DNA from: a virus
Virus record (IMG/VR): IMGVR_UViG_3300037507_000278
Location: 1 to 35,256 of that record
Reading direction: 5' to 3' (one strand)
Length of the DNA: 35,256 nucleotides
Below the pieces are notes generated by a model, which saw nothing but the letters and a program-made list of their open reading frames with translations, was not told the DNA's origin and did not search any database. The position numbers and the translations under genes were made by a program. Below, in pieces: positions 28,609 to 30,299 of the stretch (position 1 is the first letter of the stretch; each line of letters begins with the position of its first letter).

Positions 28609-28637
28609 ATTATAGCATATTTTTTAAGTTTTGTCAA
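28609..28637 (-). promoter_or_regulatory. Late operon promoter, consensus sigma70 with extended -10
   Basis: On the minus strand, TTGACA (28632-28637), a 17-base spacer and TATAAT (28609-28614), both perfect, with TG one base before the -10. Predicted start near 28602, giving a leader of about 160 bases before the small terminase ATG. As the only strong promoter ahead of the late genes it probably drives them with host polymerase. Such a strong site would need repression early; see the operator-like dyads nearby. Confidence 0.88.
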
Positions 28638-29234: not shown

Positions 29235-29263
29235 TTGACAATGCAAAAACACTTGTTTAGTAT
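29235..29263 (+). promoter_or_regulatory. Early promoter, sigma70-like
   Basis: TTGACA (perfect, 29235-29240), 17-base spacer, TAGTAT (4 of 6, 29258-29263). Predicted start near 29270, about 29 bases before the first early gene at 29299. Drives the rightward early genes. Confidence 0.65.
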
Positions 29264-29298: not shown

Positions 29299-29571
29299 AT
29301 GTGGTGGACTGAATCCCTAGGCCGTATTGAGCTTAAAATGACCCTAAAACAAGCTCAGATGTGCTCGCATCCTGGCCAGTGCGATGCTGATGTATTGTTG
29401 CTGTCTCAAGATCCGAAGATTGCTAATCAGTTAAAGAAATTGGATCCAAAGGTTGTTTCACAGTGTTTGAAAGAGTACGGTGCTTGGAATGATGAAGATT
29501 TGTCCGATCATGGGCAAAACCTTCAGCGCCTTTTGTGGATCGCTGCGTGTGATATTTCCGAGTCTAATTAA
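29299..29571 (+). CDS. First early gene, 90-aa hypothetical
   Basis: MWWTESLGRIELKMTLKQAQ, then MCSHPGQCDADVLLLSQDPK and YGAWNDEDLSDHGQNLQRLL: soluble, helical, with C22 and C28 near HPGQCD. I recall similar proteins as common hypotheticals in aquatic phages. GGAG lies 8 bases before the ATG, and the early promoter starts about 30 bases upstream, so it is the first product after infection from this operon. Its stop is 5 bases before a hammerhead ribozyme that would cut the mRNA 31 bases after the stop. Confidence 0.8.
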   Translation: MWWTESLGRIELKMTLKQAQMCSHPGQCDADVLLLSQDPKIANQLKKLDPKVVSQCLKEYGAWNDEDLSDHGQNLQRLLWIAACDISESN

Positions 29572-29575
29572 CCAA

Positions 29576-29630
29576 GGTCGAAACCCTACCAAGTGTAGGG
29601 TCTATAGTTTAAGACTATACTGATGAGACC
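29576..29630 (+). ncRNA. Hammerhead ribozyme, type II (helix II open)
   Basis: All core parts can be read in order. Helix II 5' arm GGTC (29576-29579); GAA (29580-29582); helix III ACCCTAC/GTAGGGT (29583-29589 with 29595-29601, loop CAAGT), closed by the required A-U pair; cleavage nucleotide C at 29602 in a GTC context; helix I TATAGT/ACTATA (29603-29608 with 29614-29619, loop TTAAG); CTGATGA (29620-29626); helix II 3' arm GACC (29627-29630). All 17 helix pairs are Watson-Crick. Cleavage is expected between 29602 and 29603, separating the mRNA of the 90-aa gene from that of the GP88 gene, whose ribosome site (AAGGA, 29643-29647) stays outside the fold. Hammerheads are known in some phages; activity here is inferred. 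Confidence 0.93.
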
Positions 29631-29654
29631 AACTAACCAACTAAGGAAACAACC

Positions 29655-30299
29655 ATGCTCAAGCTTTCGATTACATCTAAACTAGACGGAATTAGATCTT
29701 GGAGTTTACAGGCCTTAGATACTTGTCCGGGATCTGTTGGCGACAATGGCGAGTTAGTTGCTGCCTGCGCTGGTTGCTATGCCACTACAGGCAATTATTT
29801 ATATCCTAACGTAAAGGCTCCGCGTGAGCATAATAAACAAGACTGGCAGCGGGATAGTTGGGTTGATGACATGGTCCAAGCATTAGACTCCGATCGTTAC
29901 TTTCGCTGGTTCGATTCTGGTGACATGTACACAATCAAGCTTGCAGAGAAAATGCTCGAGGTCATGAAACGTACACCTTGGTGTAAACATTGGTTACCGA
30001 CTAGAATGCACAAGTTTCCTAAGTATCAATCAATCATTGATCAAATGGATGCACTGCCGAATGTTGTTGTTCGTAGGTCATCAGATTCCGTTATCGGCGA
30101 AGTACTTGATGCACCATGGTCGAGCACTATTGCTGAATCCTACAATGACGATAGCATCAGTGTATGCCCAGCATATCAGCAAGGCGGTAAGTGTAAAGGT
30201 TGTCGGAAGTGCTGGGACAAATCAATCCCAGTTATCGGTTATGCTGCCCATGGTCAAAAAATGTCCAAAGTTATCAGACTTAAACTTGCAAAGGCTTAA
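29655..30299 (+). CDS. GP88-family cysteine-rich protein
   Basis: 214 aa. Matches the phage 'gene product 88' pattern: SWSLQALDTCPGS, then CAGCYATTGNYLYPNV, RYFRWFDSGDMYT, THKHWLPTRMHKF-like WLPTRMHKFPKY, and the C-terminal cluster CPAYQQGGKCKGCRKCWD. Seven or more cysteines in CxxC-like groups suggest bound metal, zinc or an iron-sulfur cluster. Biochemical function is unknown. AAGGA is 7 bases before the ATG. The mRNA 5' end is expected to be set by the hammerhead ribozyme upstream, making its expression unusual among the early genes. Confidence 0.8.
   Translation: MLKLSITSKLDGIRSWSLQALDTCPGSVGDNGELVAACAGCYATTGNYLYPNVKAPREHNKQDWQRDSWVDDMVQALDSDRYFRWFDSGDMYTIKLAEKMLEVMKRTPWCKHWLPTRMHKFPKYQSIIDQMDALPNVVVRRSSDSVIGEVLDAPWSSTIAESYNDDSISVCPAYQQGGKCKGCRKCWDKSIPVIGYAAHGQKMSKVIRLKLAKA

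Follow-up and report, generated by a model that had tools for sequence, protein, structure and literature searches.

A compact type II hammerhead ribozyme between two phage genes and its proposed role as a gene separator

The element between the 90-aa gene and GP88

A short RNA that appears able to cut itself lies between two genes of a virus, which raises the questions of whether it is a genuine ribozyme and what a phage would use it for. The window analysed here is the whole 35,256-base virus record, and the element occupies 55 bases of its + strand (29576-29630). It is recognised as a compact type II hammerhead ribozyme from the sequence, by a strict descriptor and by a covariance model built for this study (R1), while the Rfam model RF02276 scores it below cut-off. 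Upstream lies a 90-aa gene of unknown function (phrog_14450; 29299-29571, + strand) and downstream the GP88 gene (PF17338, E 1e-28; 29655-30299, + strand), whose ribosome-binding site AAGGA can be read at 29643-29647 (+ strand). A sigma-70-like promoter, TTGACA-17-TAGTAT, precedes the 90-aa gene (29235-29263, + strand; 10/12 consensus match), and from this promoter-like site and the position of the genes we infer that both are early. A perfect consensus promoter (TTGACA-17-TATAAT, 12/12) is located at 28609-28637 on the - strand, reading towards the structural genes and divergent from the promoter at 29235.

Every core base and helix of the + strand element can be read directly. The 5′ strand of helix II, GGUC (29576-29579), pairs with GACC (29627-29630); both strands undergo compensatory change in relatives, and the 3′ strand has one mismatch in three recombinant relatives. 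The core box GAA (G12, A13, A14; 29580-29582) is invariant in the window's family and in the 34 elements used to train R1. The helix III hairpin (29583-29601, loop CAAGU) consists of seven pairs, ACCCUAC/GUAGGGU (29583-29589 and 29595-29601), with A29583-U29601 as closing pair, and is the predicted 3′ end of the upstream message. Cleavage is predicted between 29602 and 29603, after C29602 of a GUC; this is position H17 of the hammerhead, a C in 74/78 compact elements. The helix I hairpin (29603-29619, loop UUAAG), with which the GP88 message is predicted to begin, contains six pairs, UAUAGU/ACUAUA (29603-29608 and 29614-29619), with an extra U-G pair possible, and its 17 bases place it in the compact length class. 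It is followed by the core box CUGAUGA (29620-29626), invariant except at N7. The CUGANGA and GAA boxes and a UH cleavage site are thus all present. Helices I and III are closed by loops and helix II is open in the sequence, the predicted fold and the descriptor alike, and an open helix II with GAA first, then the cleavage site, then CTGATGA identifies type II. The original prediction of a complete motif, with helices of 4 (II), 7 (III) and 6 (I) pairs, located between the 90-aa gene and GP88 in coding-strand orientation, is therefore confirmed from the sequence, as is its cut between 29602 and 29603; its GP88 leader of 53 bases is corrected to 52.

Several lines of evidence indicate that this small self-cutting RNA is almost certainly a genuine hammerhead ribozyme. 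The minimum-energy fold of 29572-29634 contains all three helices (-17.5 kcal/mol), and 2/200 shuffled sequences folded equally well. The strict descriptor matched 29576-29630 as the single site in the whole window and found no second hammerhead there. Across 1.62 Mb it returned 204 matches with the true core versus 0 or 1 with scrambled core boxes, a comparison that measures specificity and not abundance, most loci having been fetched by their core. R1, which was built from 34 hammerheads of other viruses with the window's family excluded, gave one match in the window at 61.5 bits (E 3.2e-14). Rfam at its gathering cut-off found no match in the window, and a 301-base search up to E 10 was also empty; in a 71-base search RF02276 scored the element at 27.8 bits (E 2e-4), short of its cut-off of 37 bits. 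Since the match is visible in the 71-base search only, the missing Rfam match is an effect of filter and cut-off. The covariance-model match above threshold that had been named as a check was thus obtained with R1 but not with Rfam.

In the training set of R1, standard pairs fill 99.8% of pair cells and 12/15 pairs have changed on both sides, although its members had been picked by a descriptor that requires pairing. A non-circular test used 108 sites fetched by a pattern blind to helices I and II: both helices were present in 70/108, versus 31/~5000 re-dealt controls. Close relatives of the window's hammerhead occur on about 25 viral contigs, and the compensatory changes in related phages suggested as a further check are seen in helices II and III. 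Helix II reads GGAC/GTCC in some family members and GGTC/GACC in others, and in one relative (L083) the same core is joined to helices II and III replaced by different pairing sequences. Annotated phage genomes contained no DNA similar to the whole element, just short partial matches, and none at all for three other arrays. We conclude that the window's hammerhead is well supported and belongs to a known kind.

Compact and pseudoknotted hammerheads in one slot

The less familiar part of the finding is the compact architecture together with its strict placement. The 204 descriptor matches represent 168 distinct elements, whose hairpin I measures 17-18 or 21-24 bases and never 19 or 20. In the long class helix II mostly has 3 pairs and loop I is complementary to the tail 3′ of helix II, a complementarity that corresponds to the published pseudoknot. 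The compact class (78 distinct elements), a form frequent in other viruses, has a helix II of 4 pairs in 74/78, an A directly 5′ of helix II in 78/78, U as the first base of loop I in 75/78, and scant complementarity between loop I and tail. An alignment of 150 model matches (135 distinct) has the same length gap, with the A before helix II in 77/77 compact elements. No locus with both classes was found, although 23 loci have at least three ribozymes. Among the loci tested, RF02276 at its cut-off recovered seven long-class elements and zero compact ones. Where it gave compact elements any score, this was about 28-34 bits versus the required 37. Compact elements thus count as type II hammerheads that miss the Rfam cut-off and do not make up a new ribozyme class; R1 provides a search model that recovers elements dropped by this cut-off.

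Compared with described type II hammerheads (RF02276; Perreault 2011, PMC3088659), the window's element shares the core, the circular order with helix II open, the GUC site and the phage or prophage setting, but differs in a hairpin I of 17 instead of 21-24 bases, a helix II of 4 pairs and a loop I-tail pseudoknot that was not found. Perreault 2011 (PMC3088659) describes this pseudoknot in a majority of type II motifs and also states that only ~40% of hammerheads likely use it. Because of this figure, the compact form may already be among the elements of that study.

We searched for a pseudoknot of at least 4 pairs joining loop I to the 3′ tail of helix II, but loop UAA and tail AACUAACC, which in the window are as printed for the twins L089/L098, give at most 2 pairs, and the rest of the family reaches at most 3. 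Pairing of the loop or helix I with tail AACUAACC was also rejected as a conserved pseudoknot, as this tail occurs in ribozyme-free GP88 leaders (L001, L012) and L086 and L092 have a different one. The proposal that the loop pairs with TTAA at 29568-29571 did not hold up either: these bases are part of the final codon and the stop of the 90-aa gene, and they are missing when another gene precedes the ribozyme. A candidate contact in place of the pseudoknot is that between A29575, the A before helix II (+ strand) that is invariant in the compact class, and U29609 of loop I. Extended hammerheads of types I and III share the catalytic core, and the A beside helix II with the near-invariant loop I U could resemble their loop I-loop II contact, although the open helix II of the window's element leaves it no loop II.

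Both architectures occupy a fixed slot, just past one stop codon and ~24 bases ahead of the next start. In the window, 4 bases separate the 90-aa stop codon from helix II, and 24 bases, AAGGA among them, separate the end of the element from the GP88 start. A stop codon lies within 20 bases 5′ of helix II in 68/78 distinct compact elements, and a Shine-Dalgarno sequence with a start codon 8-45 bases 3′ of the element in 70/78. Both features occur together in 61/78 compact elements versus 1.2% of random same-strand positions, which agrees with the earlier suggestion that the element sits where cleavage would separate two messages. The distance from cut to start has a median of 52 bases, also the window's value. 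Elsewhere, arrays of 3-8 ribozymes run in series between small genes, with a median spacing of 480 bases, or about one or two small genes. In six loci (L111, L131, L150, L153, L177 and L184) the arrays comprise six to eight same-strand pseudoknotted hammerheads among small genes, some of them just 68-70 bases apart.

A search of 84,980 bacterial and archaeal genomes with a narrower pattern yielded no confirmed case of the compact form. It is an even call, in our judgement, whether these elements form a distinct, essentially virus-confined compact subclass of type II, in which the A by helix II and the loop I U would replace the pseudoknot and each phage lineage would use one form, never both, as its standard separator of small genes. 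As a separate observation, a core variant recurs in both length classes: in thirteen type II hammerhead-like elements (L120, L137, L138, L141, L154, L162, L175, L176, L178, L183, L186, L197 and L201; for example CTGATGA-T-GGC with GCC-GAAA), a single additional base, mostly U, separates the CUGANGA box from helix II.

The GP88 border in related phages

Using the GP88 protein as an unbiased entry, we examined the best 80 viral loci carrying it. Nine of these have a hammerhead directly upstream of GP88 (L002, L007, L008, L009, L011, L013, L015, L018 and L019), and in L003 it lies one gene further upstream. Among the 19 closest loci (L001-L019), the ribozyme is present in 10/15 that have no promoter directly before GP88. 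In the other four (L004, L005, L006 and L010) GP88 follows straight after TTGACA-17-TAGTAT or a near copy, nearly identical to the window's promoter at 29235-29263, and the ribozyme is present in 0/4; the chance of 0/4 is ~0.03 (hypergeometric, by hand), which is merely suggestive because the loci are related. The remaining five of the 15 comprise two with a plain GAAA-loop hairpin (L001, and L017 one gene up), L014 with the 3′ half of the ribozyme only, and L012 and L016, at whose GP88 border nothing was recognised. The same downstream gene thus occurs with a ribozyme, a plain hairpin, a relic or a promoter instead.

L086 and L092 carry the same ribozyme after the 90-aa gene but a different downstream gene. 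In the chimeras L002, L003/L093 and L100 a single helix II pair is mismatched, which is what recombination within the ribozyme would be expected to produce. These mismatches and the half element in L014 indicate that the ribozyme is not indispensable. It moves with gene cassettes and is required, if at all, only where a gene precedes GP88. No ribozyme was found near relatives of the flanking genes in five records. In Limnohabitans phage DC33 a promoter-like TTGACA-17-TATAAT (L208, 2600-2630) lies 3′ of the 90-aa homologue, at the position of the window's ribozyme; this phage is filed as Inoviridae despite its 39 kb and looks mislabelled.

A proposed gene separator and the alternatives

We consider it probable, judging from sequence comparison, that this compact and apparently pseudoknot-free type II hammerhead is self-cleaving and serves the phage as a gene separator. 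As the polymerase moves on from the 90-aa gene to GP88, the nascent RNA would fold and cut itself between 29602 and 29603, constitutively and co-transcriptionally, and so separate the messages of the two genes. The upstream message would end in the helix III hairpin just past its stop codon, with a 2′,3′-cyclic phosphate, and the GP88 message would begin with a 5′-hydroxyl and the helix I hairpin, 52 bases before its start codon. These hairpin-capped ends would probably shield the two fragments and let them decay independently. The model builds on the observed motif, its covariation, its conserved placement and its occurrence in related phages, from which cleavage, end protection and separate half-lives are extrapolated. 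The fixed slot, the natural GP88 variants and the presence of two architectures in one slot make such a separator directly testable.

In the early region of phage T7, RNase III sites cut the polycistronic early message between genes and leave hairpins at the ends. Those sites are cut by a host enzyme, whereas a hammerhead is cut by the RNA itself. For hammerheads, Perreault 2011 (PMC3088659) documents self-cleavage in vitro, and also in E. coli in the case of A. tumefaciens, describes prophage ribozyme arrays, and proposes that they process long phage transcripts. As in those clusters (its Figure 3; the A. tumefaciens ardA locus), where ribozymes flank single genes or small blocks, the window's hammerhead borders genes, but it is one copy at one gene pair, in a virus record and of compact form. 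HHphage of haloviruses HF1/HF2 likewise closely precedes an early phage gene, with a mapped 5′ end at most 3 bases from the cleavage site (Perreault 2011, PMC3088659), but it has core insertions and stands 13 bases from the start codon. Perreault 2011 calls the functions of phage hammerheads unproven, and a 2017 review (PMC6155905) treats why phages carry them as an open question. In Perreault 2011, 14/18 hammerheads that conformed to the consensus cleaved, so that activity of the window's element is not certain.

The weak point of the element is its helix II of only 4 pairs. In the computed ensemble, the probability that all 17 pairs form is about 0.6 when the transcript ends by 29700 and 0.001 when it extends to 29760 and GP88 coding sequence competes. 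The segment 29735-29760, within GP88, is complementary to the ribozyme 3′ tail and abolishes helix II in this ensemble of one sequence. Cleavage might accordingly be tuned instead of constitutive, either by such GP88 pairing or by ribosomes terminating the 90-aa gene, whose stop codon sits 4 bases ahead of helix II. We regard regulation of this kind as unlikely, given that the competing fold was predicted thermodynamically from one sequence and that compact genomes explain the conserved slot equally well.

The element might also be kept mainly as a recombination joint at gene borders, used for cassette swaps with cleavage incidental. Near-identical ribozymes do stand between differing upstream and downstream genes, the 5′ strand of helix II follows the upstream gene and its 3′ strand the downstream gene, and the chimeras with a mismatched helix II (L002, L003/L093, L100) and the 3′ half in L014 fit such exchange. 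A linker for recombination would, however, require sequence identity rather than pairing, whereas the core boxes stay invariant while the helices co-change, including the new helices II and III of L083, and unrelated phages share architecture and slot despite different sequence. This makes a primary role in recombination quite improbable, and a self-cleaving separator that travels with its cassettes remains our preferred reading.

Least probable is that the two hairpins are purely passive structures without self-cleavage (end protection, a weak terminator or an RNase landing site): in some relatives a plain hairpin does occupy this slot (for example AAGGGCGAAAGCCCTT in L001, AAGGGTCGAAAGACCCTT in L020 and L023) and the helix III stem was flagged as terminator-like, but no real U tract lies behind this stem, for which reason a terminator was rejected, and a passive hairpin leaves the invariant GAA, CUGANGA and GUH boxes of >100 elements unexplained. 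Plain hairpins of 6-7 pairs are found in the leader slot of GP88 or of the preceding gene in nine loci (L001, at about 2955-2975, L017, L020, L023, L034, L036, L039, L042 and L079). Among 79 GP88 leaders, 12 have a stem of 6 or more pairs, versus 6% of coding controls, a modest excess. The hairpin loop of L034 is inverted (TTTC), and the GGGCGAAAGCCC-like hairpins of L001 and L017 could be hammerheads that collapsed to a GAAA tetraloop.
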